In this document: one piece after another, positions 8,826 through 50,695 of the stretch | Layout: each line of letters starts with the position of its first letter | Position numbering within the stretch: the first letter of the stretch is position 1 | Origin: Pyramidobacter sp. YE332 | Lineage (GTDB): Bacteria > Synergistota > Synergistia > Synergistales > Dethiosulfovibrionaceae | Direction of reading: 5' to 3' | DNA: 64,000 bases | Assembly: GCF_033060595.1 (NCBI RefSeq) | Contig: NZ_CP133038.1 | Location: forward strand, 124,001-188,000 | The notes under the pieces: model-generated | Seen by the model: the letters and a program-made list of their open reading frames with translations, nothing else | What the model was told of the DNA's origin: nothing | Database searches by the model: none | Program-made: the position numbers and the translations under genes

Positions 8826-8944
8826 TTAAAGTGCAATCCTGACGGCAACAGCCTTTGAGCGCTGCCGCCTTAAAAATTGTTTGCAATTCTCGTCCAATGA
8901 CATGATATTTTTAAAGCGTAACACGAAAGGGTTCAAAGGGAAAC

Positions 8945-9057
8945 TTGCGACGACCTGCTCTCCCGCGAAGCGAATCGCAGTACCATCGGCGCTGGAGGAC
9001 TTAACTTCCGGGTTCGGCATGGGACCGGATGGACCTCCTCCGCAATTCTCACCAGCT
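8945..9057 (-). rRNA. rrf: 5S rRNA (distal copy)
   Basis: The minus strand carries the 5S core CCCATGCCGAACCCGGAAGT followed by GCGCCGATGGTACTGCGATT and a complementary 3' end. Ends are estimated from 5S alignment by eye, to within a few bases. It is the second of two 5S genes in this operon and lies 277 bp from the first, with a similar leader. Confidence 0.9.
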
Positions 9058-9221
9058 CCTCTGTTCCATCAGACTCCCGCCGCCGTCATGGCCTAGCCGC
9101 AACGGTGCGAAAGCTAAATTTTTTCAGGCGAACGTATTCGTTTATTTTCGGACTTTCGTTTTCGTTCTTTGCGCGTCGGCCAGTTCCGCAAGCGCAGGAA
9201 CAAAGAAAAAAACAGAGACAC

Positions 9222-9334
9222 GGGCGACGACCTACTCTCCCGCGAAGCGAATCGCAGTACCATCGGCGCGTGAGGGCTTAACTGCCGGGTTCGGCATGGG
9301 ACCGGGTGGACCCCCTCCGCATTTATCACCAGTA
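9222..9334 (-). rRNA. rrf: 5S rRNA (proximal copy)
   Basis: This is the same 5S core as the distal copy (CCCATGCCGAACCCGGCAGT on the minus strand) with a few substitutions. It lies about 130 bp after the 23S 3' end, the usual place for 5S. Differences from the distal copy cluster at potentially base-paired positions and near the ends. Confidence 0.92.
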
Positions 9335-9466
9335 TCTCTGTTCAATTCGACTTCCGCAACTGCCATGGACGCGTCCACAGTCAGTGCGAAAGCGAAACCT
9401 TTTCGTTGTTCTTTTTTCGTTTCTCTTTTTCGTTTCTCTTCTCTCGAACAGCACGAAACTGAAACA

Positions 9467-12438
<2,972 letters not shown>

Positions 12439-12742
12439 TGTTTCAGTTTCGTCCTGTTCGATTGTCAAATGGCTGGGCGCGCGGGAGGGGGATCCGGTTT
12501 CCCGAGGATCTTTCTCCAACGCTGGATGCCGCGCGCTCTTTCGGCGCTTGCTCTTTGGCGTTTTGCGTTTGGCGCTCGGCGCTTTCTTAATCCAGGCATA
12601 AAACGCCCGGTTGGGTTCCTTGACTCGAAGAGGGGGAGAGAAGCGGCGTGAAGCGGGGGAAGATGTTTTGGTATTTCTGTCGTGCAAACGTGCAGCTTGT
12701 TTCGTTCAGCTTGAGTTCTCGTTCGCTGATGGTGCTCCTTAG
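12439..12742 (-). other. 16S-23S internal transcribed spacer without tRNA
   Basis: About 300 bp separate the rRNA genes. I looked for tRNA-Ile or tRNA-Ala (T-loop GTTCGAATC-like, anticodon stems) and saw none. The part next to the 23S gene forms one arm of the 23S processing stem. Confidence 0.7.
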
Positions 12743-14267
<1,525 letters not shown>

Positions 14268-14646: not shown

Positions 14647-14696
14647 AAAAAAAAGAGACTTTTCTCTTCCTCGCGTTGGAAGAGAAAAGTCTCTTT
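14647..14696 (-). terminator. Strong terminator after ABC transporter genes
   Basis: A 19-bp perfect stem (AAAGAGACTTTTCTCTTCC and its complement) with a 7-base loop is followed on the minus strand by a run of eight T. It begins 2 bp after the stop of the ABC ATPase gene. Confidence 0.9.
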
Positions 14697-14698: not shown

Positions 14699-15463
14699 TT
14701 ACGCTCCGCGGTCGTCGAAGTTCAGCTGCTCCATGGCGAACCTGCGATAATCCATGAATTCTCGGCTGGTGCGGCGGCGCGGATAGGGCAGGTCGACTTT
14801 GATGTCGTTGTGGACGCGGCCGGGGCGCGGCGCCATGACGACGACGCGGGAGCCCATGTAGAGGGCTTCGTCCACATCGTGCGTCACCATGACGACCATG
14901 GGGCGGTGGCGCGACCACATGGAGAGGATCACGTCTTGCATGGTCATGCGGGTGAAGGCGTCGAGCGCGCCGAGCGGCTCGTCGAGCAGAAAGACCTGCG
15001 GGTTGTTGACCATGGTGCGCAGCAGCGCGGCGCGCTGGGCCATACCGCCGGACAGCTGGTGCGGCCAGTTCTTGCGGAATTCCCACAGCCCGGCGGTTCT
15101 CATCAGTTCCTCGACTTCGGCCTCATGGCCGCGCAGCTGGCCGCGCATTCTCAGGCTGAAGGCGACGTTCTGTTCCACAGTCAACCACGGAAAAAGCGTC
15201 GGTTTTTGAAAGACCATGCCGCGCACGGGGGCGGGGCCGTCGATGACCTCGCCGTTGAGGGTCACCTTCCCGGTCGTCGGCACGATCAGCCCGGCGATCA
15301 GGCGCAGGATGGTCGATTTGCCGCAGCCGGAGGGGCCGATGACGCTGATGAACTCGCCGGAGCGAATTTCCAGTTCGATGTCTTCGAGGGCGTTGGTGAC
15401 GGAACTGCCGGCGTTGGCAAAGCTTTTGCTGACGTGGTCGAGCTTGAGGATATTTTCGCACAT
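14699..15463 (-). CDS. ABC transporter ATPase, nitrate/sulfonate/taurine (SsuB/TauB) type
   Basis: This 254-residue cytoplasmic ATPase energises the adjacent permease. Walker A GPSGCGKST (~43), Q-loop, signature LSGGMAQRAALLR (~138) and Walker B VFLLDEPLGALD (~160) with the switch His in VTHDVDEAL are all present. The DEPLGALD/AQRAAL pattern and length fit the NitT/TauT group. It starts 10 bp after the permease gene stop and is the last gene before a strong terminator. Candidate substrates are sulfonates, nitrate-like anions or small organic compounds; the binding proteins do not let me choose. Confidence 0.93.
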   Translation of the reverse strand: MCENILKLDHVSKSFANAGSSVTNALEDIELEIRSGEFISVIGPSGCGKSTILRLIAGLIVPTTGKVTLNGEVIDGPAPVRGMVFQKPTLFPWLTVEQNVAFSLRMRGQLRGHEAEVEELMRTAGLWEFRKNWPHQLSGGMAQRAALLRTMVNNPQVFLLDEPLGALDAFTRMTMQDVILSMWSRHRPMVVMVTHDVDEALYMGSRVVVMAPRPGRVHNDIKVDLPYPRRRTSREFMDYRRFAMEQLNFDDRGA

Positions 15464-15472
15464 GACGGCGGC

Positions 15473-16510
15473 CTACCTTTCCTGCCAGCGCAGCATGTAG
15501 CGGCGGACCGCGCCCAGCAGCGCGTTGACAAGCACGAAGATAACGCAGATGGCGACGACGGCGGCGTACATGTTGCCGTAGCGGGCCCAGCTTTTCTGCC
15601 AGGTGATATACCAGCCAAGCCCCGACTCGACGCCGATCATCTCGGCCACCATCAAAGCGACGCAAGCCGTGCTCATGCCTTGAGTCATGCCCTGCAGGAT
15701 GTTCGGCAGCGCCGAGGGCACGGCGATGGTTCCGACGAGGCGCATGCCTTTGACGCCCAGCGTGCGCGCCGCCTCGAAATAGGCGGGGTCGATGTTGGTG
15801 ATGCCGGTCTTGGTAGCGATCGTGACGGAGTACCACACGCCGAGGGCGATGATGAACACGCTGCCGCGGAAGAGCGTGGCGGCCAGCACCATGACGACGG
15901 GAAGCCAGGTCGTGGAGGGGATGGCGCCCAGCAGGCGCGTAAACGGCTCGATCCAATAGTTGACGTTGCGGTTGTAGCCGCAGGCGATGCCGGTCACCAG
16001 CCCGACGCCGACGCCGATGAAGTAGCCGGTGAACAGCAGGATCAGCGAGTTTTTGGCGCAGTCCATCAAGTAGGCCCAGTCGGCGATGGCCGCTTCCAGC
16101 ATCTGATCGAGCCACGGAAAGTACGGCAGCGGCAGGCCGCCTGTCTTGAGCGTCAGCCAGTCGTAGCCGGCCAGCGCCAGAAAGACGAACGTATAGAAGG
16201 GGGCTTTGTAGCGCATCCAGCGGAAGGCGCGGCGCCCGCAAAACGAGGCGAGGAAACCGATCAGCGCCAGCCCCGTCAGGGCGAGGATGAACCAGTTGTA
16301 GTCGTTGCCGTGAGTGTTTCCCTGCAGATCGGGAAGGCAGTTGTACTCCCACAGGGCGACGACGCCGGCGACGACGGGAAGAAAACAGACGACGTAATCG
16401 AGAAATTTCTGAAATTTCGTTCTCGGGCGGCTCTCGAGAATCGCCAGTTCGTCCCGCGTCAGACGGCGGGGCGGCATCCCGGAAGCGCGGCCGTTTTCAT
16501 GACCGGGCAT
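15473..16510 (-). CDS. ABC transporter permease, SsuC/TauC type
   Basis: This 345-residue inner-membrane permease has an unusually long N-terminal part with extra spans before the core. The EAA-type loop EAARTLGVKGMRLVGTIAVP near residue 245 is the contact for the ATPase. The ATG at 16510 has AAAGGAGA upstream; a longer reading frame exists but adds an arginine-rich stretch with no ribosome site. It is followed by its ATPase. A terminator hairpin 94 bp upstream separates it from the TDT carrier gene, so this pair may be transcribed separately from the binding proteins. Confidence 0.9.
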   Translation of the reverse strand: MPGHENGRASGMPPRRLTRDELAILESRPRTKFQKFLDYVVCFLPVVAGVVALWEYNCLPDLQGNTHGNDYNWFILALTGLALIGFLASFCGRRAFRWMRYKAPFYTFVFLALAGYDWLTLKTGGLPLPYFPWLDQMLEAAIADWAYLMDCAKNSLILLFTGYFIGVGVGLVTGIACGYNRNVNYWIEPFTRLLGAIPSTTWLPVVMVLAATLFRGSVFIIALGVWYSVTIATKTGITNIDPAYFEAARTLGVKGMRLVGTIAVPSALPNILQGMTQGMSTACVALMVAEMIGVESGLGWYITWQKSWARYGNMYAAVVAICVIFVLVNALLGAVRRYMLRWQER

Positions 16511-16603
16511 AAAGAAAAATCTCCTTTCTTCTCTTCGGCAAGCACTGCGCAGCGCTGGCTGCCTGTCACATTTTCTGTTCCCGTTTCGCGCCGGGCGGAA
16601 ACG

Positions 16604-16638
16604 CAAAAAGAGGGGGAGCCGCAGCGAGCCCTCCCCCT
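16604..16638 (-). terminator. Intrinsic terminator between TDT carrier and ABC permease
   Basis: AGGGGGAG (minus-strand copy at 16638-16631) pairs with CTCCCCCT and is followed on the minus strand by CTTTTTG. A second perfect 9-bp hairpin (CCGGACGGA/TCCGTCCGG, 16672-16692) lies next to the TDT stop and could attenuate read-through. Confidence 0.65.
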
Positions 16639-16698
16639 TCTGCGCCATACCGCCGGCAGATCTTGTTCACGCCGGACGGAAACTCCGTCCGGAGCAGG

Positions 16699-17610
16699 TC
16701 ATTTCGAAAAGATGAATTTCATGAAACGGAAATAGGTATAAACCACGAACACGACAGCGATCAGCGTCGCCGCCGGCACCAGGTACGGTGCGAGCGGCAG
16801 GGCGCGCCCAAGCTTGGCGGCGCAGGATGCGCCCTGCTTGAAGGCGATCGCCGAGATCACGAACGGGAAGGTGAAGGCCGCGTAGCTGGGATAGAACGGC
16901 AGTTTCAGCATCGAGAAACTCCTGACCAGCGCAAAGACGTACGTCAACAGCGCCAGCGCCAGCAGGAAGGCCAGCATCGCGAAGGACTTGGGCATGACCG
17001 ACTGCACATAACCGGCCACGCAAAGGCTCGTGGGCGCCGCATAGACGCAGATCAGCGGCATCGCCGGCTCCGGCACGGGCAGCGTTTGATACCGCTTCGT
17101 CACCACGAACAGCAGGATCAGAAGCGCCGCAAACCCAAACCAGAAAGCGACGGTGCCGACATCGGCGCCGCGCCCATAAGCGGGCGCCGTCACCGAAGCG
17201 ACGACAATGCCGACGTAGAGGATGAAGAACACCGTGGTGACCTTTTTCAGATCAAAGCGGAGCACAAACTTGAGAGTGAACCAGACGATCAGCACCACGT
17301 GCAGCGCCACGGCGAACCACCACACGAGGCGCGCCGCCGCTCCCGCAAAAGGCAGGATATAAGTGCTCAGCAGCATCAGCGCCATCGGGAACGTGGCGGA
17401 GACGCCCGCCGTGATCGGATTTTGCATGTCCTCTCTGACCGCGGCGGGGAAGCAAAACAGCTTCAGAAGCAGCAAAACCAGCAAAAACGCCGCCAGCACC
17501 CCGCAGACGGCGCGGATCCCTTCGCCGCAGCTCTGCAGCAGATTGCCCAGCGCAGCGGCGCCCACCATCACGCCCGCCGCGGGAATCGGCACTTTCTTGA
17601 TGAACTGCAT
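16699..17610 (-). CDS. TDT-family (TehA/SLAC1-like) membrane carrier
   Basis: This 303-residue protein has about ten hydrophobic helices. Family-like features are the N-terminal PIPAAGVMVGAAALGNLL helix, the repeated helix-hairpin layout and NPITAGVSATFPMALML near residue 65. TDT proteins export or import small anions such as tellurite, C4-dicarboxylates, malate or sulfite. It starts 19 bp after the C_GCAxxG_C_C gene and belongs to the same leftward unit as the binding proteins. A sulfite-exporting role would fit a sulfonate-using pathway, but nothing in the sequence proves it. Confidence 0.78.
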   Translation of the reverse strand: MQFIKKVPIPAAGVMVGAAALGNLLQSCGEGIRAVCGVLAAFLLVLLLLKLFCFPAAVREDMQNPITAGVSATFPMALMLLSTYILPFAGAAARLVWWFAVALHVVLIVWFTLKFVLRFDLKKVTTVFFILYVGIVVASVTAPAYGRGADVGTVAFWFGFAALLILLFVVTKRYQTLPVPEPAMPLICVYAAPTSLCVAGYVQSVMPKSFAMLAFLLALALLTYVFALVRSFSMLKLPFYPSYAAFTFPFVISAIAFKQGASCAAKLGRALPLAPYLVPAATLIAVVFVVYTYFRFMKFIFSK

Positions 17611-17629
17611 CCGTCAACCTCCGTTCAAA

Positions 17630-18166
17630 TCAGTTCTTCGCAGGCGGCAAATACGGCGCTTTCAGACCTTCGATCGGTCCGTCGTCAACGTTTTTGATGT
17701 TCAGCTCGCGGCACAGGATCTCGGCGACCTTGCCCGCGCAGAGACCGGTGAAGGCGATGCACTGAGCCTTGTGTTCCCCTTCGGCCATCTCAAAGCCTCT
17801 GGTGAGCACGCGGCAGCAGTTCGCGTGTTTGGCGTTCGCGTCTCTGAACCAGTCGTGCAGCTCGTGCGTGAGCTTCATGCAGTAATTGACCTTCGGATCC
17901 TTGGGGCCGTCCTGCGTCGTGCGGCCGAAAAACAAACTCAGCGCCATGATGCCGCCGTTCAGCGCCCCGCACATGCAGCCGGAGCGCCCGGCGCCGATCG
18001 CCATGCCCGACGACAGAGCGATGACTTCTTCGGGAACGTCCACGTTGAAATCGCTTCTGATCGCCGACATCACCGCCTCGCAGCAGAAGAAGCCGTTTCT
18101 GTAAAGATCTTCCGCGTGCTTCTGGACGGCCTTCGGGCTGACCTGTTCGACTGAGTACTTTACCAT
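17630..18166 (-). CDS. C_GCAxxG_C_C family cysteine-rich protein
   Basis: This 178-residue cytoplasmic protein belongs to the family named for its cysteine pattern. Visible cysteines are in GFFCCEAVMSAI (~24), GRSGCMCGALNGGIMALSLF (~62), NYCMKL, NCCRVL and the C-terminal GLCAGKVAEILC. These suggest a redox or metal-binding role; the family has no firmly established reaction. The ATG at 18166 is used because AGGGGAG precedes it; an upstream in-frame start lacks such a site. It lies between the second binding protein and the TDT carrier in one transcription unit, implying a job connected with the imported or exported compound. Confidence 0.85.
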   Translation of the reverse strand: MVKYSVEQVSPKAVQKHAEDLYRNGFFCCEAVMSAIRSDFNVDVPEEVIALSSGMAIGAGRSGCMCGALNGGIMALSLFFGRTTQDGPKDPKVNYCMKLTHELHDWFRDANAKHANCCRVLTRGFEMAEGEHKAQCIAFTGLCAGKVAEILCRELNIKNVDDGPIEGLKAPYLPPAKN

Positions 18167-18263
18167 TGAAAAACTCCCCTTGAGATATGATTGGATGTTT
18201 TTTCGCCGGGAGCCCCCTCGCGGCAAAAACATCTTAAAAACGAACGATTTGGCGCGGTCGATC

Positions 18264-19268
18264 TCAATCGTTCCCGAGAACCGGATCCCAGACCTGCTTC
18301 ATCAGCGCATCGGTATCCTTTTTGGCGTCGATGAGGCCGAAAGTCTTGTAGTCGTCGATGATGTTGCGCAGCGCGGCTTCCGTAGCTTCGTCGCTGATGC
18401 TGTAGTCGTAGGTCTTGAAGATCTCGAGCACGAGCTTGGGATCGCCGGCCGCCCATTTGTTCGCCTGAAGCACGGCGACGGCCTCTTCGGGGTGCTCCAT
18501 GACCCAGGCGCTGGCGGCCTCGTGAGCGCGAGTCAGTTTTTTCACCGTGAGCGGGTTCTCGTTGTAGAAATCGAGGTTGACGGCGTGGATGCAGCAGGGC
18601 TCCTGCTTGAAATCCTCGTCGAACGTCAACGAGCGGATGATGCGCAGTTCGCCGCTGTCGAGGAATTTCTTGGCGAACTGGTCGCCGAGCAGCGCCGCCT
18701 GCACTTCGCCTTTCTTCATGGCCATCACGGCGACGCCCGCTTCGGCGACTTTCCATTTGATCTGGCGCGGATCGACCTTGTCGTGGTTGAAAAAGCGCAT
18801 GGAAATGTTCTGATCGGAACCGCCGATGCCGTCGGGAATGGCGACGTATTTGCCGACCAGATCGGCCGTAGTCTTGATCGGACTGTCCACGGGCACATAC
18901 AGCGATTTACAGCCCGAATGGATGCCCGTGGTGAACTTGACGCGCACGCCATTGACGGTGGGAACGAGCATCGTGGCGATATGATCGCCCGTCACGTCCA
19001 CCTTGCCGGTGCCGATGGCGTCGATCTGACCGCTACTGCCGCCGGCCATACGGATCACTTCGGTCTTCAGCCCTTCCGCTTCGTAAAAACCTTTCAGCTG
19101 GGCGATGCCGAACGTGCCGAGGCAGAGGCCGCCGTTGTAACCGATCTTGATGACGCGGCCGTAGGCGGGTTCCTTCCTCCAGGCGGCGTCTTCCTCTTCC
19201 TTCGTCATGGCGGCGGCAGGCGCAGCCATCAGCGCGGCGCAGAACAGAACGACAAGAAACTTTTTCAT
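18264..19268 (-). CDS. ABC substrate-binding protein (NMT1/THI5-like), copy 2
   Basis: This is a 334-residue exported solute-binding protein. A signal peptide (KKFLVVLFCAALMAAPAAA) is followed by the mature start MTKEEEDAAWRKEPAYGRV and a two-lobe periplasmic-binding fold with IGYNGGLCLGTFG near residue 42. The start ATG at 19268 has GAAGGAGAGC upstream; a longer frame reading into the preceding gene is not credible. It is clearly paralogous to the binding protein at 19818-20819, sharing the mature start and most motifs. The partner permease and ATPase lie further downstream. Substrate unknown. Confidence 0.9.
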   Translation of the reverse strand: MKKFLVVLFCAALMAAPAAAMTKEEEDAAWRKEPAYGRVIKIGYNGGLCLGTFGIAQLKGFYEAEGLKTEVIRMAGGSSGQIDAIGTGKVDVTGDHIATMLVPTVNGVRVKFTTGIHSGCKSLYVPVDSPIKTTADLVGKYVAIPDGIGGSDQNISMRFFNHDKVDPRQIKWKVAEAGVAVMAMKKGEVQAALLGDQFAKKFLDSGELRIIRSLTFDEDFKQEPCCIHAVNLDFYNENPLTVKKLTRAHEAASAWVMEHPEEAVAVLQANKWAAGDPKLVLEIFKTYDYSISDEATEAALRNIIDDYKTFGLIDAKKDTDALMKQVWDPVLGND

Positions 19269-19345
19269 CAACAGCTCTCCTTCATAATGTTTTTTCGTAG
19301 AGGTCAAATCAAGAACACGAAAAGTCGCTGAGATCCAGGCTTCCG

Positions 19346-19765
19346 TTACTTGGCGCTGAACTGATCGTACGCTTCCAGCACGATCCCGGCATAAGCCGAG
19401 CTGGGGCCGCCGCCCATAAGGACGGCGACGCCAAGCGCTTCGGCCAGCTCTTCGCGCGTGACGCCGGCCTTGATGGCGTTCTGGACGTGCGAGTTGATGC
19501 ACATTTCGCAGTGGGCCTGCAGGCCGAGCATCAACGCGATCAGTTCCTTGGTCTTCAGGGAAAGCGCGCCCTCTTTCAGCACGGCGCCGGCCAGGCCGCC
19601 GAAGGCCTGCATCGTTTCGGGGGCCGCTTCGCGCAGTTTTTTGCCGCGCAGGCCGGCCTGACGCGCCGCGTTTTTGTAGTCCACCTGTTTTTGAGGTTTC
19701 TCCGCTGCAAAAGCCACGCTGCTCAAAACCATTATCATGGCGGCTGCCAACACTAGAATTTTCAT
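19346..19765 (-). CDS. Exported AhpD-like carboxymuconolactone decarboxylase family protein
   Basis: This is a 139-residue protein with a cleavable signal peptide (KILVLAAAMIMVLSSVAFAA). The CMD/AhpD core follows, with HCEMCINSHVQNAIKAG near residue 85 carrying the CxxC pair and the His that in AhpD-type proteins supports thiol-based peroxidase chemistry. Family members are usually cytoplasmic, so export is notable. It lies between two paralogous substrate-binding protein genes in the same direction, 77 bp before one and 52 bp after the other, so a role in handling the imported compound or protecting it from oxidation is plausible but unproven. Confidence 0.85.
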   Translation of the reverse strand: MKILVLAAAMIMVLSSVAFAAEKPQKQVDYKNAARQAGLRGKKLREAAPETMQAFGGLAGAVLKEGALSLKTKELIALMLGLQAHCEMCINSHVQNAIKAGVTREELAEALGVAVLMGGGPSSAYAGIVLEAYDQFSAK

Positions 19766-19817
19766 GATAAATTTCTCCTCTCGATCATGTGTTCGATCTT
19801 GAAAGACCGTTCCGAAA

Positions 19818-20819
19818 CTAATCGTGCTGCAGGACCGGATCCCAGATCTTTTTCAGGATCTTGTCGGGATCGAGGCGGGGGTCGAGAATGCCGAAGCTCT
19901 GATAATCGCGGATGATAAGGCGCAGCGTCTCCTCCGTCGCCTGATCGCTGATGCCATAATCCAGAGTTTTCTGGATGGACTGCACGAGGTCGAAGTTGCC
20001 GGTGACGTACTTGTGGTCAAGGAGGAGGCGGACGCTCTCGTCGATATTGTCGAGAATCCACTGACTGGCCTTTTCATGGGCGCGGGTCAGTTTCTTCACG
20101 GTGATCGGGTTCTCGTTGTAGAAGTCCAGATTGACGGCATGAACGCAGCAGGCTTCTTTCTTGAAGTCATCGTCGTAGGTCAGCGAACGTACGATGCGCA
20201 GGGTACCATCGTCGAGGAAACGGCGCGCGAACTGATCTTCAAGCAGCGCGGCCTCAATCTCTCCGTTCTGCATGGCCATGATACTGACCCCCGCTTCCAC
20301 GACCTTCCATTTGATGTCACGGAAGGGACTGATACCGTCGCGGCTGAAAAAGCGCATGGCGATGTTCTGATCCGAATCGCCAATGCCGTTCGGCACAGCT
20401 ACCGTCTTGCCGACCAGATCTTTTGTGTTCTTGATGTCGCCCTTGGCGAGCACGTACAGCGATTTACAACCAGTGTGGATGCCCGTCGTGAATTTCATGC
20501 GCACGCCGTTAACCGTAGGAATGATGAACTTAGCGATATGGCCGCCCACCACATCGACTTTGCCGGTGCCGATGGCGTCCACGTCCTTGGTCATGCGCGT
20601 GATCTTGACTTTCAAGCCCTCTTCGGCGTAGAAACCCTTGATGTCGGCAATGCCAAAAGTGCCGAGACACAGACCGCCATTGTAGCCCACATTGATCACG
20701 CGCCCGTAAGCAGGCTCCTTCTTCCAGGCCGCGTCTTCCTCTTCCTTCGTCATCGCGAAGGCCGCGGCAGAAACAAGCGTCGCCGCACCTGCCAGAACCG
20801 CAACCAGCTTTCTGTTCAT
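19818..20819 (-). CDS. ABC substrate-binding protein (NMT1/THI5-like), copy 1
   Basis: This is a 333-residue exported solute-binding protein, first gene of the leftward unit. The signal peptide (NRKLVAVLAGAATLVSAAA) is followed by MTKEEEDAAWKKEPAYGRVI, almost the same mature start as copy 2, then IGTFG-like and YNGGLCLG motifs. ATG at 20819 is preceded by AAGGAGCG. High similarity to the protein at 18264-19268 over the full length indicates tandem duplication with the AhpD-like gene between. Two binding proteins for one importer may give two substrate specificities. Which substrate is not visible. Confidence 0.9.
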   Translation of the reverse strand: MNRKLVAVLAGAATLVSAAAFAMTKEEEDAAWKKEPAYGRVINVGYNGGLCLGTFGIADIKGFYAEEGLKVKITRMTKDVDAIGTGKVDVVGGHIAKFIIPTVNGVRMKFTTGIHTGCKSLYVLAKGDIKNTKDLVGKTVAVPNGIGDSDQNIAMRFFSRDGISPFRDIKWKVVEAGVSIMAMQNGEIEAALLEDQFARRFLDDGTLRIVRSLTYDDDFKKEACCVHAVNLDFYNENPITVKKLTRAHEKASQWILDNIDESVRLLLDHKYVTGNFDLVQSIQKTLDYGISDQATEETLRLIIRDYQSFGILDPRLDPDKILKKIWDPVLQHD

Positions 20820-21222
20820 AAAACGATCGCTCCTTCTCAACCGTTAGTAACAGTTATAGTTTTTATGCTTAATCAACATATCATTCGGCTTTTGAAAAGT
20901 CAATTCGAATTTATGAACAGTATTACTCTCAAGAAAACATTTTGCATCGTCTTGGTTGTTCGGAAATTCTGCTTCGCCGCAAATCATCAGTTCTGTCCGA
21001 AAGAATCGTTTGCAAAGGGGCGTTCCTGCCTTATTCTTTTACGATCACGTAAGTACGCTTAAAAATTTCCGGCAAAACCAAGAATCATACGCCAAAAATC
21101 ACAACGCGTCGCCCTTTTTTTGTCCATTTCGCACTGGACGGGGACGGACCCGTCGTTTATGATGAAACACGGTTTTCGAAAAGAGCGCCCGTTCGATGAA
21201 CTTTATAAAGGAGGAGTCCGTC
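20820..21222. other. Divergent intergenic region
   Basis: About 400 bp separate the leftward binding-protein operon and the rightward M20 peptidase. It is AT-rich near the left half and must hold both promoters. TATAAC on the minus strand near 20855 and TATGAT on the plus strand near 21158 are possible -10 boxes without convincing partners. A short inverted repeat GTCCA/TGGAC occurs near 21122-21139. No small gene is supported. Confidence 0.4.
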
Positions 21223-36576: not shown

Positions 36577-36623
36577 TTTTTGCGGTATGATTGAACCGAA
36601 AATGAAGCATGGAGGTGAACCCC

Positions 36624-37310
36624 ATGGAGATTCAACCGTTGCCGCCGCTCCCCGAACTGTCCGCGGAAACGCTGACGCGGCTGCGCCGCTACGCTTCGCT
36701 GTTGTCTGTCGCCAACGAGCGAGTGCGGCTGACGGGACCTCACGACGAGGAAACGCTGTGGCGCGACCACATCGAAGACTGTCTGCACATGCTGCCGCTA
36801 TTGCCGTCCTCAGGTACGGTCGTCGACGTCGGTACCGGCGGCGGTCTGCCCGGCGCCGTCCTGGCCGTTTGCCGCCCCGATCTGGAATTCACGCTGCTGG
36901 ACAGTCTTTCGCGCAAGAGCAAGGCCCTTGCAGAAATTGTCGCTGGGCTGAACCTTTCCAACGCGGAAGTGGTCTGCGCGCGCTCGGAGGATTTCGCCGC
37001 CGCGCGTCGCGAGCAGTACGACGCCGCCGTGGTGCGGGCCGTCAGCGAAGCCGGCGTCATCGCCGAATATCTAGCGCCGTTGGTGCGCGAAGGCGGCGTG
37101 CTAATCGCCATGAAGGGCAGTTCCGTCGGCGAAGAGCTGGCGCCGCTGGAAGGCCGCTGGAACGTGCTTGGCCTCAACGAGCCGAAACTTTACGAATACG
37201 ACATCAAAGATCACAAGAGCTACATGCTTCTCTGGAAGAAAAGCGCGCCCTGCCCCGCGGTTTATCCGCGCAAGCCCGGGCGGGCCGAAAAAAAACCGTG
37301 GTGGAGGTGA
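36624..37310 (+). CDS. rsmG: 16S rRNA (guanine-527-N7) methyltransferase
   Basis: This 228-residue SAM-dependent enzyme methylates G527 in 16S rRNA (old name GidB). Motifs are WRDHIEDCLHML (~36), the SAM loop VVDVGTGGGLPGAVLAV (~57), LLDSLSRKSKAL (~81) and the GGVLIAMKG strand (~150). The ATG at 36624 is preceded by GGAGGTG; an in-frame ATG five codons earlier overlaps that ribosome site. It is the first gene of the rsmG-parA-parB operon, 4 bp before parA, a classical near-origin arrangement. Confidence 0.95.
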   Translation: MEIQPLPPLPELSAETLTRLRRYASLLSVANERVRLTGPHDEETLWRDHIEDCLHMLPLLPSSGTVVDVGTGGGLPGAVLAVCRPDLEFTLLDSLSRKSKALAEIVAGLNLSNAEVVCARSEDFAAARREQYDAAVVRAVSEAGVIAEYLAPLVREGGVLIAMKGSSVGEELAPLEGRWNVLGLNEPKLYEYDIKDHKSYMLLWKKSAPCPAVYPRKPGRAEKKPWWR

Positions 37311-37314
37311 GACG

Positions 37315-38076
37315 ATGAAGACTATCGCGGTCATCAATCAGAAAGGCGGCGTCGGCAAGACGACGACCTGCGTCAATCTCGCTTCCGAACTCGGCGCCAT
37401 GCGCAAAAAGGTGCTCGTCGTCGACGCGGACCCTCAAGGCAACGCGTCCAGCGGTCTCGGCTTTCAGTTCGACGACTCCGTGTCGCTTTATGACCTTGTC
37501 GTCGGCAATGAAGATCCCAAGTGGGCGCTGCATTCGACCAGCGCCAAAAACGTCTCGCTGATCGCCTCGAACATCAATCTGGTCGGCGCCGATCTGGAAA
37601 TGGGCAGCCTTCAAGGAAGGGAGTTCCGCCTGCGCGAAGCGCTACGCAAGCTCGAAAACGACTTCGACGTCGTCCTCGTCGACTGCCCGCCGTCGCTGGG
37701 GCTGCTTACCGTCAACGCGCTGGCCGCCGCCAACCGCCTGTTGGTGCCCGTACAGTGCGAATATTACTCCATGCAGGGACTCAGCCTGCTCGCGCGCACC
37801 GTGCAGATGGTCCGCGAGCAGGGCATCAACCAGGGCGCGCAGATCGACGCGATTCTGCTCACCATGTACAACCCAAATCTGCGCCTCACGCGCGAGATCG
37901 AGACGCAAATCCGCGACGTCTTCGGCGAGCACGTGCTGAAGACCGTGATCCCCCGCAACATCGACCTGGCGGCAGCCCCCGCGCAGGGACTGGCTATCCG
38001 CGACTACGTCCGTTCCAGCCGCGGCGGCCAAGCCTATCACGATCTGGCATTGGAGGTCAAAAGACTATGGCTGTAA
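37315..38076 (+). CDS. parA: Chromosome-partitioning ATPase ParA (Soj)
   Basis: This 253-residue Walker-type ATPase acts with ParB-parS to segregate newly replicated origins and, in relatives, to modulate DnaA. The deviant Walker A KGGVGKTTT is at 10-18, VDADPQGNASSGL at 39-51 and VLVDCPPSLGLL at 119-130. There is no N-terminal DNA-binding extension, so it is the short chromosomal type. The start ATG follows GGAGGTGAG. It overlaps parB by 10 bp, implying coupled translation. Confidence 0.97.
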   Translation: MKTIAVINQKGGVGKTTTCVNLASELGAMRKKVLVVDADPQGNASSGLGFQFDDSVSLYDLVVGNEDPKWALHSTSAKNVSLIASNINLVGADLEMGSLQGREFRLREALRKLENDFDVVLVDCPPSLGLLTVNALAAANRLLVPVQCEYYSMQGLSLLARTVQMVREQGINQGAQIDAILLTMYNPNLRLTREIETQIRDVFGEHVLKTVIPRNIDLAAAPAQGLAIRDYVRSSRGGQAYHDLALEVKRLWL

Positions 38077-39026
38077 ATCGCAAAAATACCGCCGCGGCCC
38101 AGGCCGCGAAGAAATCCGCCGCTTCCGCGAAGTCCATCATCCAGTCTGGCCGCGGCCTCGGCGCGCTGCTGGCCAAGCAAAACGTGAGCCGCGTCCCCCA
38201 GAACAGCGAAATGGCCCCGCTGGCCGATATCGAGCCCAATCCCAATCAGCCCCGCAAGCTTTTCGACAGCGCGACGCTGCGCGAACTGGCCGCATCCATC
38301 AAAGTTCACGGGCTGCTCCAACCGCTGATCGTCACCCCCGCGCCTGCCAAGAGCGCAAAGAAATACCGCATCGTCGCCGGCGAACGCCGCTTTCACGCCT
38401 GCGAGCTGGCCGAACTCTCGGAAGTGCCCGTGCGCATCGTCCGGGGCGACGAACAACTCCTCAGCGAGATCGCCCTTGTAGAGAACCTTCAGCGCGAAGA
38501 TCTGACCGTGCTCGAGACCGCCAACGCTCTCAAGGTCTTGATGGAGAAGCATCGGCTCACCCAGAACCAACTGGCCGAGCGCATCGGTTGGAGCCGCAGT
38601 GTCGTGGCCAACAAGCTCCGCATCCTCTCGCTGCCCCAGGGCGCGCTGGATCAGATCGCCGCCGGCAACCTCAGCGAAGGGCACGCCAAAGCCCTGCTGT
38701 CTCTGAAGGAACCGCAGAAATTTCTTGAAGAGCTTGTAGCAGACTGCATCGCGCACCATTGGTCCGTTCACAACCTGCAAAAACGCATCGACTCCCTCAA
38801 CAGCCGCCGTGTTACCGTCCTTTACAAGGCTCCCCAGCTTGACCCCTGGCGCCCCAAAGGAGCGCTGAAAGTGGCACGCCGTCTTGGCCTGTCTTTCAGC
38901 GTTCTCGGCAACGAGAGAGAAAACCGCGTCGTCATCAACGGCATGCGCCGTGAGCAAGTGGAGCGTCTTTTCGCCCTGCTGGACCGCGAAGCCGATTTTA
39001 TGAGCGGAGATCCGGACAGTAAATAA
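38067..39026 (+). CDS. parB: Chromosome-partitioning protein ParB (Spo0J), CTPase clamp
   Basis: This 319-residue parS-binding protein has IEPNPNQPRKLF (~60), CTP-site box II GERRFHACELAELSEVPVRIV (read as GERRFHACELAELSEVPV, ~108), ENLQREDLTVLETANA (~140) and the helix-turn-helix LTQNQLAERIGWSRSVVANK (~168), followed by a C-terminal dimerisation region. The lysine/alanine-rich first 30 residues probably bind ParA. Six perfect parS sites in the window are its targets. It overlaps parA and is directly abutted by the small AtpZ-like gene. Confidence 0.97.
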   Translation: MAVNRKNTAAAQAAKKSAASAKSIIQSGRGLGALLAKQNVSRVPQNSEMAPLADIEPNPNQPRKLFDSATLRELAASIKVHGLLQPLIVTPAPAKSAKKYRIVAGERRFHACELAELSEVPVRIVRGDEQLLSEIALVENLQREDLTVLETANALKVLMEKHRLTQNQLAERIGWSRSVVANKLRILSLPQGALDQIAAGNLSEGHAKALLSLKEPQKFLEELVADCIAHHWSVHNLQKRIDSLNSRRVTVLYKAPQLDPWRPKGALKVARRLGLSFSVLGNERENRVVINGMRREQVERLFALLDREADFMSGDPDSK

Positions 39027-39266
39027 ATGAAAACTCCCAACGTCAAAGACGTTATCGTCTTCAGCCGCATCGTCGGAGCAGCCCTGCTCGTTTGCGGCTA
39101 CCTCCTGGCAGGGCTGTTCATCGGCCGTTATTTTCTGGACCGCGGTTACCCGCAATGGACCCTCCCCTTGTGCCTGATCGCCGGCCTCATCGGCGCGTTG
39201 CTCTCGGGAGTTCGCGAGTTGAAAAGCATTCTCGCGATGATCCGTCGCGACCGCCAGAATCAGTGA
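39027..39266 (+). CDS. Small two-helix membrane protein, AtpZ/AtpI-like
   Basis: This 79-residue protein has two membrane helices (about 12-32 and 44-62), glycine-rich with GRYFLDRGYP between them, and a basic C-terminus. The pattern resembles the AtpZ/AtpI family that accompanies F-type ATP synthase operons. Its ATG starts directly after the parB stop codon, so it is translated from the same message. No ATP synthase genes occur in the window, although in some bacteria the atp operon lies near the origin. Confidence 0.65.
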   Translation: MKTPNVKDVIVFSRIVGAALLVCGYLLAGLFIGRYFLDRGYPQWTLPLCLIAGLIGALLSGVRELKSILAMIRRDRQNQ

Positions 39267-39297
39267 AGTTTCGGCGTGACGCGTGGAATGTCCCAAG

Positions 39298-39696
39298 TTA
39301 TCCACATTTTATCCACTTCTCCACAAGAACAAAAGCATACTTTCCGGCACTTGACAAAAATCTCCGGGAGAAAGGGAGCTCTTTCAAAAAATATTTTGAA
39401 GAGAACGCTATCGAGAGACGCCTACCTGCGAGGACTTTTGAAAACTCCATCACGAAAAACGAACGCAAAAATTCGCTTTCAACAGAAATCGCGATGCCAA
39501 AAAGTTCACATGGGAAGAGTTTTTTGACCATTCAATTTTCCCCTTGACGCTTTGATTCACAGTTTCCACAGAAACGCTCCGCTTTTTTTCAGATCCCCTC
39601 GAAACGAGCTTAAAAAATCATTTTCCGCGCCGATCCGGCTGCAAATTTTTGCGAATCCCGATCTCGCTCACAAGTTATCCACCAATGTTGTCCACA
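39298..39696. other. DnaA-box cluster after parB operon
   Basis: The 477-bp gene-free region 39267-39743 holds TTATCCACA (39298), TTATCCACT (39309), TTCTCCACA (39317), TTATCCACC (39675) and TTGTCCACA (39688), plus AT-rich stretches around 39380-39480 and 39590-39660. Perfect or near-perfect boxes in one orientation next to AT-rich DNA look like an origin or a DnaA-titrating site. No other gene is supported here. Confidence 0.6.
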
Positions 39697-39743
39697 GCGG
39701 TGAATAACTCCCACCTTTTTGCTCATAGAAAAGAGGAAAGAAC

Positions 39744-40229
39744 ATGGAAACACTCATGGCCCCATGGAGGTACACGTACCTCAACTCCGCCAAAAGCGAC
39801 GGCAAGAGCTGTATCTTCTGCGATTTCCCCACCGACGGCAGCGACGACAGAAAGCACTTCATCGTCTTTCGCGGCACACACTGCTTTGTGATTCTCAACG
39901 CCTACCCTTACAGCTCGGGGCATCTGATGGTCATCCCCTACCGCCACACGACCGACCTGAGCTCTTTCACCCCCGAAGAATCCCTCGAGTTCCACGATCT
40001 GATCGCCCGCGCCATCGAATCTCTTAAAGGCGCGTTTCATCCCGACGGTTTCAACGTCGGCATCAACATCGGCGCGGCGGCCGGCGCCGGCATCGACACC
40101 CATATCCACTGTCACGTCGTGCCGCGCTGGAACGGCGACAGCAACTTCATGGGCGCGATCGGCGACGTCAAAGTCGTCCCCATCTCCCTTGAAGAGACCT
40201 GGGAACGCTGCTGCTCGTGCTGGCGCTAG
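39744..40229 (+). CDS. HIT-family nucleotide hydrolase/transferase
   Basis: This 161-residue protein has the histidine-triad motif HIHCHVVPRWNGD (~113-125) and the zinc-binding-type N-terminal CIFC pair (~26), typical of the Ap4A-phosphorylase-like HIT branch. Other features are APWRYTYL at the start and SSGHLMVIPYRH (~60). The last codons (WERCCSCWR) look unlike family ends, and the gene overlaps the next one by 13 bp; a slipped frame would join the two. The ribosome site AAGAGGAAAG supports the start. Confidence 0.88.
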   Translation: METLMAPWRYTYLNSAKSDGKSCIFCDFPTDGSDDRKHFIVFRGTHCFVILNAYPYSSGHLMVIPYRHTTDLSSFTPEESLEFHDLIARAIESLKGAFHPDGFNVGINIGAAAGAGIDTHIHCHVVPRWNGDSNFMGAIGDVKVVPISLEETWERCCSCWR

Positions 40230-40888
40230 ATCGGCCCTGCCGTCGTCCCGCGGCCCCCGCCGTTTACAGCTTCAAGGAAAAGCGCAGCGAGTTCATCGCC
40301 GCCCTCTTCCCCGCCGCCGCGGGCGACGAAGCCCGTGCCACGCTGGAATCCGTGCGCAAGGAACATCACGGCGCCGCGCACAACTGCCCGGCATGGCGCG
40401 CCGGCTATCCCGACGTGGAAGAGTTCTGCTCCGACGACGGCGAACCGGGCGGCACCGCCGGACGGCCGATCCTTGGTGCCTTGCAGAAAGCCGGATTGTT
40501 CAACGCAGTCCTCGTCGTCACCCGCTATTTCGGCGGCGTCAAGCTCGGCGTGCGCGGCCTCATCGACGCCTACGGCGCCGCTGCGGCCGGCGTCATCGAG
40601 CGCGCCGGCGTCGAAACGGCCCTGCCCTTCAAAGAGCTGGAACTGCGCTGCGGCTACGAACATCTGGCCGCCCTCAGCCGCGCCGTCAAAAGCGCCGGCG
40701 TCGCCGAAAACCGCCTGCGTACCGCCTACGGAACGGACATCACCCTCACCCTGCTCGTCGCTCCCGCGCTCGAAGAACGCCTGCGCTCCCTGCTCGACAG
40801 CTACGAAGGGCGCCAACTGCTCGCCGCGCCGCCGCTCTGGGGAAAAAGCTACGTGCTCGCGGCGGAAAACCAAGCCGGCGGATCATGA
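40217..40888 (+). CDS. YigZ/IMPACT-family protein (UPF0029)
   Basis: This 223-residue protein of the widely conserved YigZ family has EFIAALFP (~28), HNCPAWRAG (~54), DDGEPGGTAGRPIL (~75) and VTRYFGGVKLGVRGLIDAYG (~97), the family's core ribosome- or RNA-binding-like fold, followed by a ferredoxin-like C-terminal domain. The start is uncertain: I used GTG 40217, which overlaps the HIT gene and lacks a strong ribosome site. Function is poorly known; some relatives regulate translation or act as peptidases. Confidence 0.85.
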   Translation: MLALDRPCRRPAAPAVYSFKEKRSEFIAALFPAAAGDEARATLESVRKEHHGAAHNCPAWRAGYPDVEEFCSDDGEPGGTAGRPILGALQKAGLFNAVLVVTRYFGGVKLGVRGLIDAYGAAAAGVIERAGVETALPFKELELRCGYEHLAALSRAVKSAGVAENRLRTAYGTDITLTLLVAPALEERLRSLLDSYEGRQLLAAPPLWGKSYVLAAENQAGGS

Positions 40889-40906
40889 AAAAACTCGACA
40901 GAAAAA

Positions 40907-40951
40907 ACGTTTGGGCAGGATAAGCGACGACCGTCTATCCTGCCCAAACGT
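40907..40951 (+). terminator. Terminator after yigZ-like gene
   Basis: ACGTTTGGGCAGGATA pairs perfectly with TATCCTGCCCAAACGT over 16 bp, 18 bp after the stop codon. The T-run is weak. Confidence 0.7.
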
Positions 40952-40978
40952 CTGTCTTGGGGACGACGAACACAAAAA

Positions 40979-41004
40979 TCCGGGCTTTCACGCGAAAGCC
41001 CGGA
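40979..41004 (-). terminator. Terminator after APC permease
   Basis: TCCGGGCTTTC and GAAAGCCCGGA form an 11-bp stem with a 4-base loop, followed by TTTTTGTG on the minus strand. Confidence 0.85.
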
Positions 41005-41051
41005 CAACGAAAAATCTTCTCTGAAATTACAGACAAAAGACGAGAACCGTT

Positions 41052-42412
41052 TTATTCTTTGCCGATATCATCCGGCGTAAGGACGCGCATCTGATAGCCG
41101 CAGACGCGCCGGTGCGCGGCGGCGAGAGCGTAGACGACCGCTCCAAGGGCGAAGAAAAGCCCCAACGAGACGTATCCGCCGCGGTCCAGCTCCATGCACG
41201 CGCCGATGATCAGCCAGACGGAAATGAGCATACCGACGCCGAAGACGAAGTTCCCGCCCGGGGCCCTGAACGGACGCTTCCATTCGGGGTGCAGCTTCCT
41301 GAGACGTATCACGTCAAGGCAGGAAATAAAGTAGACGATGCCCGCGGCGATGCTGGAGATCGCGTAGATATACTGCACCCAGTTGTCGCCGCTGAAGTAG
41401 CAGAAGAACAGCGAAAACAGATACACGACGACGTTGGCCCAAAACGGCTGCCCGTAGCGGTTCACCTTCATGAACACTTTCGGCAGCTGATTCAGCTGGG
41501 AAGCGCCGTACAGCACGCGCGCGCTGGAAGTCCAGAACCCCATCAACGTCGTAAAGGCGTGCATCAGCCCGGACACAATGGCCAGAACGGCAAGGATGCC
41601 GGGCAGGCCGAAACGGGCGATCAGCTCGGGTTCGGGCATGTTCATGGCCGCGATTTCCTTCCAGGGCGCCATGCCGCCCATGGCGAGGACGACAAAGCTG
41701 TACAGCAGCGCGGGAATGAAAAGGGCGGATAAAATGACCTTCCACAGCTTGGAAGCGGGGAAGTTGGCTTCCTCGACCAGCGTCGGCGTCATTTCGAAAC
41801 CGATGAACTTCAGCGAGAACACGGCCATGGCGATGAAGATCCCGTAGCCCCTTTGGGGAAGAACCCCTGGTGCAGGCGGATATTGTCGAAGCTCCAGTGC
41901 CCGCTCAGGAAGAACGACGTCGAGACGCCAAGCGAGATGACGATCATCGCGAAGAAAAAGATGTTGGAAAGCCGCCCGGTCAGGCTGATGTTGAAGTTGG
42001 AAAGCACGAACCACAGCGTGACGGACAGCATGGCGATGATCATCATCTGATCGTTCGTCAGCGGATAGAAGTGATTGATCGCCGTGCCGAAAATGAACGC
42101 CATCATCGGCGGCTCGACGACCTGGATCAGAAACATCATCCACTGCGTGGCGAAGCCGGCTTTGTTATTGTAAGCGTTGCACGTCCACACGTCGGTGCTG
42201 GCCGCGAAAGGCAGCATCGCCGACAGCTCGCCGAACGCCAGCCCCACGGGAACGAGCAGCAGCGCCAGCAGCGGGAACAGGAACGCCGCGCCGGCCCCCG
42301 TCGTCTGGAACCAGTAGGGCGCTTCCGCCAACCAGCCGCCGATCACGGCTCCAGAGGAAATCGCGACGACCTGGACAAAACTTAAACCCCTTTTCAGCCC
42401 GTTGTCTTTCAT
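41052..42412 (-). pseudogene. APC-family amino-acid permease, frameshifted
   Basis: The start ATG at 42412 follows GGGAGGAAG. The first ~190 codons read ISSGAVIGGWLAEAPYWFQT and further helices of an APC-superfamily permease, then the frame is lost at a GGGG run (minus strand, 41851-41848). In another frame the protein resumes at once with YGIFIAMAVFSLKFIGFEMT and continues to the stop at 41052. Adding one G restores a single ~453-residue permease. It may be a real frameshift or a base-call error. It sits 28 bp after the cysteine hydrolase gene, so the two form an operon opposite the PocR-type two-component system. Confidence 0.85.
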
Positions 42413-42439
42413 TTTTTCTTCCTCCCGCTTCAACAGAAT

Positions 42440-43129
42440 TTAAAGAGCGCCGATAAGCTCTTCCGTAGTGACGACGTGGCAGTAAATGTTGTTCAGTACG
42501 GAAAGTTCGTGTTCCTGGATCTCCCTGGTCGACGCGGCGCAAGCGTCTTCGATCAGCCAAACCTTGAAGCTCTCGTCGGCAAGGCTGCGCACCGTTCCGG
42601 AAACGCACTGATCCGTCAAAACGCCGGTGACGACCACCGTATCGATGCCGCAGTTATGAAGCATCAGACGCAGAGAAGTCCCCGTCAGGGCGCTGTCGGT
42701 CGTCTTCATGACGACCAGCTCGTTTTTGGCGGGCTTCAGAGGCTCGACGATTTCGGCGGAAGGCATGCCGGGAAGCAGAAGCAGTTCGTTGTACCCGGTC
42801 GCTTTTTGATCGAGAGAACGTTCGCGCCCGCTCTCGAGCTGACCGGTGATGCGCGCGTGGGAAACAAACATGTTCCTTTCCCTGAAAGCGGCCAGCAGTT
42901 TTTGATTGTTCGGGACGACTTCTCTTTCGACCCGGTCGTAAAAGCAGCCCCATTTGGCATAGTAGGCTTTTTCACGCTCGGACGAGTTCTCGTCCAACTT
43001 CGGACGAGTGAGGAAATGATACTGCATATCGACGATGAGCAGCGCCGTCCTGTCCCGGTCGATCTCGATACCGCAGTAGTCGTCGTCCAGCTCATAGTAG
43101 AAAGAACAGTACCGATCGTTCACCTTCAT
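42440..43129 (-). CDS. Isochorismatase-like cysteine hydrolase
   Basis: This 229-residue hydrolase has the family triad: Asp in TALLIVDMQYHFL (~34), Lys in VVMKTTDSALTGT (~141) and Cys in VTGVLTDQCVSGTVRSLADE (~174). Relatives hydrolyse nicotinamide, ureido compounds, N-carbamoyl amines or isochorismate. An N-terminal ~27-residue extension (acidic, Tyr-rich) is present. Co-directional with an amino-acid permease and divergent from a sensor kinase/regulator pair, it probably degrades an imported amide controlled by that pair. Confidence 0.9.
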   Translation of the reverse strand: MKVNDRYCSFYYELDDDYCGIEIDRDRTALLIVDMQYHFLTRPKLDENSSEREKAYYAKWGCFYDRVEREVVPNNQKLLAAFRERNMFVSHARITGQLESGRERSLDQKATGYNELLLLPGMPSAEIVEPLKPAKNELVVMKTTDSALTGTSLRLMLHNCGIDTVVVTGVLTDQCVSGTVRSLADESFKVWLIEDACAASTREIQEHELSVLNNIYCHVVTTEELIGAL

Positions 43130-43290
43130 AAGAATCCCTCCAATAAAAAGATATGTTAAGATAGCACCATTATCAGCAAATACCTCGTTTCTGACAATTC
43201 ATGAAAGCGACTTTCCATCGTCAAAAAAAGTTATATGCTCACTATTTTGCAATAAAAATCCACAAATTTGCGACAGAAAGGCAAGAAGAG

Positions 43291-44355
43291 ATGCATACCG
43301 TACTGATTGCTGAAGATGAGATGATCGAGCGGGAATTTCTCGTAAATTTATTGAACCGCCTCGAAGATTTTCACGTCGTCGCGGAGGCCGGGGACGGGCG
43401 GACCGCCGTCGAATTGGCCTTTCTGCATCGTCCCGACGTCGCGTTTCTCGATATCCGCATGCCGCTGCTGGACGGCCTGGCCGCGGCGGGAAAGATCAAA
43501 AAAGCTTTGCCTCAAACGTTTATCGTGCTGAATTCGGCGTTTGCCGAATTCAAGTACGCGCAGCAAGGCATCGACTGCGGCGTCGACGCCTATCTGCTGA
43601 AGCCCTCGTCGGAAAGCGAGATATTTTCCCTGCTGCGTTCCCGTTTTACGCCGCGGCCTCTTGAACGCGACGGTCAGGAGACGTTCCGCTCTCTTCTGGA
43701 CGCTTTTCCGACGGAAGCCGCCGAAAACTTCGCCCGAGCTTTGGAAACAAAGGACGGCGCGCTGTGCGAGAGCGTGCTGAGCGAGATCCGCGCTTCGCTT
43801 GGAAAGAACCTGAGTTTAAACGTTTATCGGCTGCACGTCCTCAACGTTCTGTTCGACGTCATGAAAGCGTGCCGTCTTGGCTCAGTTTCCATGAGCGCTG
43901 CTGATGAACGCCTGTGCGACCGGATCCTGACGCGCATTTCGCAGACGCCCACCATGCCGGAGATCGCCGATCTCGCCAATTCTTGCCTTGACAATATCCT
44001 TTCCGCCGTCAGAAGTTCTTTTCGCGATTCAGCCGCGCCGATACGGCGCATTGTGGAGTTCCTGGACGAACATTTCCGGGAAGACGTCGGCGCCGGCGAT
44101 TTGAAAGGACTCGTCTTTTTGAGCGAAGACTACGTCGAGAGGCTGTTTCGCAGGACTCAGCGCGTTTCGATCCAGCAGTACGTCAACGGAAAACGTCTTG
44201 CAGAAGCCGAACGGCTTCTGCTACAAAGCAGGATGACAATGCAGGAGATTTCGGAACGCTCAGGATTTCAAAACGTATCGACATTCTTTCGGAATTTCAA
44301 AAAGAAATACGGCCTGACGCCCGCCCGGTACAGAAAGGAAAAATACCGTGAGTGA
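43291..44355 (+). CDS. Response regulator, receiver plus AraC-type DNA-binding domain
   Basis: This is a 354-residue YesN-like regulator. Receiver residues are EDEMIE (~10), phospho-acceptor Asp54 in VAFLDIRMP, and the Lys in LLKPSSESE (~104). A poorly conserved middle region follows. The C-terminal AraC helix-turn-helix pair is LTPARYRK-closed, with EISERSGFQNVSTFFRNFKK near 320-340. The start ATG 43291 lies after AAGGCAAGAAGAG. The gene overlaps the kinase gene by 8 bp. It stands divergent to the cysteine hydrolase/permease operon with a 160-bp AT-rich promoter region between them, the likely target. Confidence 0.9.
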   Translation: MHTVLIAEDEMIEREFLVNLLNRLEDFHVVAEAGDGRTAVELAFLHRPDVAFLDIRMPLLDGLAAAGKIKKALPQTFIVLNSAFAEFKYAQQGIDCGVDAYLLKPSSESEIFSLLRSRFTPRPLERDGQETFRSLLDAFPTEAAENFARALETKDGALCESVLSEIRASLGKNLSLNVYRLHVLNVLFDVMKACRLGSVSMSAADERLCDRILTRISQTPTMPEIADLANSCLDNILSAVRSSFRDSAAPIRRIVEFLDEHFREDVGAGDLKGLVFLSEDYVERLFRRTQRVSIQQYVNGKRLAEAERLLLQSRMTMQEISERSGFQNVSTFFRNFKKKYGLTPARYRKEKYRE

Positions 44356-45574: not shown

Positions 45575-45576
45575 AC

Positions 45577-45627
45577 AAAAACAAGGGATGCGGCGAGTGA
45601 ATTGCGCTCGCCGCATCCCTTGTTTTT
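45577..45627 (+). terminator. Very strong terminator after sensor kinase
   Basis: A perfect 21-bp stem (45577-45597 with 45607-45627) includes ACAAGGGATGCGGCGAG and its complement and ends in TTTTT. It starts 3 bp after the kinase stop. Confidence 0.93.
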
Positions 45628-45696
45628 ACCATCAAAAAATCAGGAAAACTGTTTCCAAAAAACTCCGCTGCTGAGACAAAGAATCGCTATCGCCGT

Positions 45697-46211: not shown

Positions 46212-46237
46212 GATGACACCCTCCAATACCATAGCAA

Positions 46238-46259
46238 TTACGTATTATTTTATACGTAA
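46238..46259. promoter_or_regulatory. Inverted repeat operator candidate at nitroreductase promoter
   Basis: TTACGTA (46238-46244) and TACGTAA (46253-46259) form a perfect 7-bp inverted repeat with 8 bp between. TATAAT on the minus strand at about 46263-46268 could be the -10 box, so a regulator bound here would overlap the promoter. Confidence 0.5.
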
Positions 46260-46392: not shown

Positions 46393-46401
46393 TTCCTTAC
46401 G

Positions 46402-50689: not shown

Positions 50690-50695
50690 GGCGGC

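Follow-up and report, generated by a model that had tools for sequence, protein, structure and literature searches.

Which compound does the seven-gene importer cassette at 14699-20819 of the DNA analysed here bring into the cell, and what do its cysteine-rich partner proteins do with it? The whole stretch, called the window below, comprises 64,000 nucleotides of Pyramidobacter sp. YE332 (contig NZ_CP133038.1, positions 124,001 to 188,000), a member of a genus of gut and oral anaerobes. On its minus strand, seven co-directional genes encode, in this order, the substrate-binding protein SBP1, an AhpD-like (CMD) protein, a second binding protein (SBP2), a C_GCAxxG_C_C protein, a TDT/SLAC1-type carrier, and the permease and ATPase of an ATP-binding cassette (ABC) transporter. 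Each of the seven proteins scored above the Pfam gathering threshold for its family, which bears out the gene set and coordinates of a preliminary description of this DNA. We consider it rather probable that the cassette imports a sulfur compound, possibly its selenium analogue, feeding reductive assimilation in the anaerobe. Such a cargo is likely because relatives of the transporter sit in cysteine or methionine operons or beside enzymes that probably break C-S bonds.

Binding Proteins and the Cysteine Tetrad

SBP1 (19818..20819) was found to be an NMT1/SsuA-like protein (NMT1 58 bits against a cut-off of 20.5) with a signal peptide recognised by reading, and SBP2 (18264..19268; NMT1 65 bits against 20.5) is its paralogue at ~65% identity, in agreement with the two paralogous binding proteins described earlier. 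That description had overlooked the four cysteines of both proteins, located at the motifs GGLC, TGC and CC (C49, C120, C225 and C226 in SBP2 numbering, with His117), as well as the cysteine/methionine, MarDK-like and double-cubane contexts of the wider family. An alignment of 22 members sharing 26-65% identity revealed only 14 invariant columns, the four cysteines and the histidine being among them. The tetrad-bearing proteins form one clade (SH-aLRT 97%), indicating a single origin of the tetrad; all four cysteines were present in 59/59 clade sequences and the histidine in 57/59, and none of 11 binding proteins outside the clade had the tetrad, some of them having the CC pair or one further cysteine. 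The clade spans Synergistota, Spirochaetota, Planctomycetota and Bacillota, with identities as low as ~26%, and no curated model fits it. Our literature search, partial in its coverage, found no paper on the tetrad family or on its link with Mar-like or double-cubane enzymes.

The AlphaFold2 model of SBP2 is confident (pLDDT 91.9), with Thi5, PqqT, SsuA and TauA as fold matches. Judged from the secondary structure of this model, the tetrad cysteines would be placed at the starts of elements facing the ligand cleft. No invariant cysteine was found in the permease. The fold is near that of Thi5, and profile alignment puts the CC pair on the cysteine run of Thi5; uptake of a thiamin precursor was rejected, as the cassette contains no thi gene and the window no thiamin pyrophosphate (TPP) riboswitch, the sole TPP element seen being a distal one in locus L220.

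An ordinary importer of the sulfonate, taurine or nitrate type, with the thiol proteins as incidental neighbours, would conform with the SsuA/TauA/NrtA fold and Pfam family. We regard it as very unlikely, given that the two binding proteins reached just 65-82 bits with the SsuA model TIGR01728 (cut-off 163.5), that the cysteines are invariant, that 0/7 cassette genes encode a desulfonating enzyme and that the linkage is kept across genera.

Genomic Neighbourhoods of the Tetrad Transporter Family

Genes for MarDK-like proteins, CysK, double-cubane-cluster protein (DCCP), Mlp or corrinoid proteins were found at 39/57 tetrad loci and at 2/61 control loci, the latter being centred on binding proteins from the same superfamily that lack the tetrad (Fisher p 6e-15, a value that exaggerates the difference, since loci of one lineage are related and the controls come largely from other phyla). 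Gene by gene, tetrad and control loci differed for MarDK-like proteins (21 versus 1), CysK (20 versus 1), DCCP (11 versus 0), C_GCAxxG_C_C (6 versus 0) and AhpD (6 versus 0). The best solved-structure matches of the MarDK-like D and K proteins were 9d9u/9fmg, at about twice the next score; 9FMG is a methylthio-alkane reductase, an enzyme of C-S bond cleavage (PMC12552129). NCBIfam models further identified CysK, MetA, MetX, MetW and O-acetylhomoserine sulfhydrylase among the neighbours, which also include MtaA-like methyltransferases, a B12-binding protein and a RACo-type activator. In sister Synergistota, DCCP adjoins the transporter.

The regulation of two relatives points the same way. In L227, a T-box lies directly 5' of an operon of binding protein, permease and ATPase, with the specifier region GAAGUGCACC. 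By established T-box rules, we read it as specific for tRNA-Cys with the specifier UGC, because among the possible codons only this one agrees with the antiterminator UGGA, a sequence that calls for a discriminator U. In L220, an S-adenosylmethionine (SAM) riboswitch heads the co-directional series metX-metW-PLP enzymes-cysK-permease-ATPase-SBP-cysK-...-metY. Through these two elements, the transporter is connected with the supply of cysteine or methionine. In the window cassette, no riboswitch was found.

The preliminary description had suggested uptake of a sulfur or arsenic compound; comparative evidence best backs the sulfur part, and the arsenic part is weakened because L226 is the single related locus adjoining arsD-arsA-arsR-acr3. 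This locus also bears on soft-metal or organometal transport akin to the predicted selenocysteine-assisted organometallic (SAO) system, in which the cysteine site would bind Hg, As or an alkylated form. Besides the tetrad binding protein with C_GCAxxG_C_C beside arsenic genes in L226, this explanation draws on SaoX, SaoP and SaoA being among the nearest NCBIfam models and on the CC pair and histidine common to SaoX and the tetrad proteins. It is nevertheless unlikely: all scores were far below the equivalog cut-offs (SBP1 82.6 and SBP2 66.9 versus 300; permease 81.8 versus 295; ATPase 251.5 versus 360), SaoX has His/Gly in place of C49 and C120, neither the SaoL lyase nor any other SAO gene is among the seven cassette genes, and most family loci have cysteine/methionine or putative C-S cleavage settings. 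Membership of the SAO system itself was rejected on the missed cut-offs and on the difference in 2/5 key residues.

Further observations were made at individual loci. At L226 5041-10437, fix-like electron-transfer genes accompany the tetrad binding protein, the C_GCAxxG_C_C gene and the arsenic genes (arsA identified by model, the others by reading). A DUF169 protein is encoded next to tetrad transporters at L225 5935-6792 and, by reading, at L053 6464-7009; DUF169 is listed with YedE in PMC5322559. At L230 5235-6824, a cysK-containing run encodes a serine-dehydratase-alpha-like protein, possibly a desulfidase, flanked by C_GCAxxG_C_C and a tetrad permease.

Conservation of the Cassette within and beyond Pyramidobacter

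The full cassette was found in the same order in four Pyramidobacter genomes, namely that of the window, a second one from its species and two from other species; over the cassette, the window proteins are near-identical to those of Pyramidobacter sp. C12-8. Two incomplete Pyramidobacter genomes gave no cassette match. Because gene order is kept in these four genomes and sub-linkages recur elsewhere, the linkage is judged to exceed chance.

Beyond the genus, the parts occur in other combinations. In the Synergistaceae loci L035, L036, L149, L152 and L155, permease, ATPase and binding protein, with or without AhpD, are followed by DCCP. The Synergistaceae metagenome-assembled genome RGIG1612 (L042) holds a single run of permease-ATPase-SBP-AhpD-DCCP-YedF-activase-DCCP-like-DCCP-Se/S carrier (DUF3343)-TDT-C_GCAxxG_C_C, with DCCP above the NF040772 equivalog cut-off (486.9 versus 350). 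The same series from DCCP and YedF to TDT and C_GCAxxG_C_C follows a different binding protein, with the CC pair only, in L173 and L181. A survey of conserved linkage, suggested in the preliminary description, revealed the whole cassette in sister species and its parts across genera; a linkage confined to this strain, named there as the refuting outcome, was not what it showed. Conserved linkage and sulfur uptake are what stands of the earlier interpretation, with arsenic and two-sided thiol chemistry (see below) losing ground.

These runs also bear on a narrower form of the sulfur reading, namely selenium-specific acquisition, in which, for example, methylated selenium or selenite would serve SelD/YedF rather than bulk sulfur supply. 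Close relatives sit with YedF, the Se/S carrier (DUF3343) and DCCP, all tied to selenium in PMC5322559 and PMC10418091, and Pyramidobacter has selA, selB and YedF, the YedF gene of the window genome adjoining selA and selB. We rate this explanation as rather unlikely, since the wider family occurs with cysK/metXWY, a cysteine T-box and a SAM riboswitch, and DUF3343 is also present in organisms without selenium use (PMC5322559).

The window genome itself has two DCCP genes, one of them with activase and radical-SAM genes as neighbours, and its DCCP at L169 scored above the NF040772 cut-off (480.6 versus 350). A MarD homologue was not found in this and five related genomes, in a search run without a positive control. 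DCCP may thus stand in for the Mar-like enzyme in the Pyramidobacter lineage. Elsewhere in the window, a protein like cysteine desulfurase or Sec lyase is encoded at 46245-47651 on the minus strand (336 bits versus a cut-off of 377), with ~110 extra C-terminal residues.

C_GCAxxG_C_C, TDT and AhpD-like Proteins

The C_GCAxxG_C_C protein (17630..18166) is a cysteine-rich protein of 178 amino acids that exceeded the cut-offs of PF09719 (85.3 bits versus 27) and TIGR01909 (85.5 versus 47.4). No solved relative was found, and a fold model of low confidence (pLDDT 76) gave no match with E below 0.7. The adjoining TDT/SLAC1-type carrier (16699..17610) reached 70.9 bits with PF03595 (cut-off 27.9) and stayed below those of TehA (NF008032; 47.7 versus 342) and tdt (TIGR00816; 29 versus 237.25).

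Counted from coordinates, the two genes are adjacent in 18/22 TDT-bearing genomes of the phylum. In several Synergistaceae the pair occurs with YedF, activase, DCCP and the Se/S carrier, and in L175 and L176 it adjoins rhodanese genes; the C_GCAxxG_C_C gene adjoins tetrad transporters in L226 and L230. The C_GCAxxG_C_C proteins of L175, L176 and L179 share 77-80% identity with the window protein, and the adjoining TDT carriers just 41%, a difference which suggests that the C_GCAxxG_C_C gene was exchanged between lineages.

The AhpD-like protein (19346..19765), whose CxxC motif is CEMC, exceeded the cut-offs of CMD (PF02627; 75.4 bits versus 23) and ahpD_dom (TIGR00778; 50.8 versus 27.8) and stayed below that of AhpD proper (TIGR00777; 19.8 versus 191.95); the nearest solved structure is 5dik. 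In the window strain, as at loci L035, L042 and L149 of other Synergistota, it carries a signal peptide that marks it as exported. In two sister Pyramidobacter species, the protein starts without a signal peptide from its own ribosome-binding site (RBS), making a fixed periplasmic role unlikely and weakening the earlier proposal that thiol chemistry takes place at either face of the membrane.

Cassette Layout and Other Window Features

Ribosome-binding sites were found for all seven cassette genes, and the starts of SBP2 (19268), C_GCAxxG_C_C (18166) and the permease (16510) were chosen by RBS and homologues. All features of the cassette are on the minus strand. A consensus scan alone revealed a promoter-like site, TTGACT-17-TATGTT with TG ahead of the second hexamer, 5' of SBP1 (20875..20903). 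The permease (15473..16510; BPD_transp_1 72.8 bits versus 26.4) has 345 amino acids from the preferred start, supported by its RBS, the longest open reading frame beginning at 16648. The ATPase (14699..15463; ABC_tran 112.9 bits versus 25) is nearest to SaoA yet below its cut-off, as given above. Between TDT and the permease lies a hairpin with a T-run (~16605..16639), a possible attenuator or terminator, so that permease and ATPase may differ in expression from the five upstream genes. A strong terminator with a 19-pair stem and a T-run (14652..14696) closes the cassette 3' of the ATPase.

The window further contains an rRNA operon with two 5S genes (8942-14267, minus strand) and origin-region genes like rsmG, parA and parB, followed by genes that, by reading, are like dnaA, dnaN and recF (36609-51754). 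A NifH-like match at 37168 was rejected, the protein being ParA. No tRNA was found across the window.

Proposed Route of Import and Reduction

In the proposed route, a putative site of the cysteine tetrad and histidine in the periplasmic proteins SBP1 and SBP2, presumably within the cleft, would capture a soft, thiol-reactive sulfur or selenium species, and permease and ATPase would, by their family membership, import it. Sulfide or selenide would then be freed inside the cell by an ATP-driven reductase of low potential, of the kind linked with the transporters. In the Pyramidobacter lineage, this would be DCCP with its activase, encoded elsewhere in the genome and adjacent to the transporter in sister lineages; in other lineages, it would be the nitrogenase homologue that resembles methylthio-alkane reductase (MarDK/H) and is encoded next to cysteine synthase. 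The C_GCAxxG_C_C protein of the conserved pair would handle the reduced sulfur or selenium, its partner TDT may export an anionic by-product, e.g., a sulfite-like oxyanion, and the AhpD-like CxxC protein could act as an accessory thiol redox partner.

Several points, together with the overstated Fisher p, weigh against this reading. Most of the evidence for sulfur is drawn from relatives whose binding proteins are 27-50% identical, and the family member in L226 adjoins arsenic genes. The cassette itself contains no reductase, CysK or selenium gene, the nearest DCCP being ~55 kb off. We infer the sulfur or selenium nature of the ligand, and likewise, from neighbourhood alone, the roles of TDT and C_GCAxxG_C_C.

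More tentatively, and with some doubt, we propose that widespread Cys-tetrad ABC importers supply one class of sulfur or selenium compounds to interchangeable ATP-driven super-reductases of the MarDK-like or double-cubane type, C_GCAxxG_C_C and TDT forming a module for sulfur/selenium handling and anion export. If this is true, double-cubane reductases would gain a physiological substrate. Once purified, a binding protein could be screened to identify the compound directly, and a single source of sulfur or selenium would then connect three kinds of gene cluster in anaerobes of gut and sediment, namely nitrogenase-like, double-cubane and corrinoid methyl-transfer clusters.

Comparison with Known Systems

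Among described systems, the marBHDK clusters (PMC12552129) resemble the surroundings of tetrad-transporter relatives, which adjoin MarDK/H-like and radical-SAM (NifB-like) genes; the available part of that source describes no dedicated transporter with Mar. They differ in that no Mar homologue was found in the Pyramidobacter genomes tested, in searches made without a positive control. Type 1 mlp clusters with DCCP (PMC10418091) share DCCP, Mar-like proteins, corrinoid methyltransferases and RACE with the surroundings of tetrad transporters, whereas the window cassette holds none of these; the main text of PMC10418091 makes no mention of an ABC transporter or binding protein. The selenium-linked YedF-DUF3343 genes (PMC5322559) form operons which, in Synergistaceae, the TDT-C_GCAxxG_C_C pair closes, although neither member of the pair was found named among them in the part of that source available.

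For the transporter itself, SsuABC/TauABC are alike in fold, gene types and proposed role in obtaining a sulfur source, but the binding proteins of the window have the tetrad and the cassette lacks a desulfonating enzyme. Unlike the SAO system, the cassette is without SaoL, SaoB, SaoC and SaoT. It does share with SaoX-SaoP-SaoA (reviewed in PMC13188914) an SsuA-like binding protein with CC and His, a SaoA-like ATPase, a permease and an anaerobic context rich in thiols or selenols. We conclude that the tetrad importer is a variant of the SsuA/SaoX-like ABC importers and, because both types of binding protein have CC and His, that the tetrad proteins and SaoX possibly share a common kind of soft ligand.

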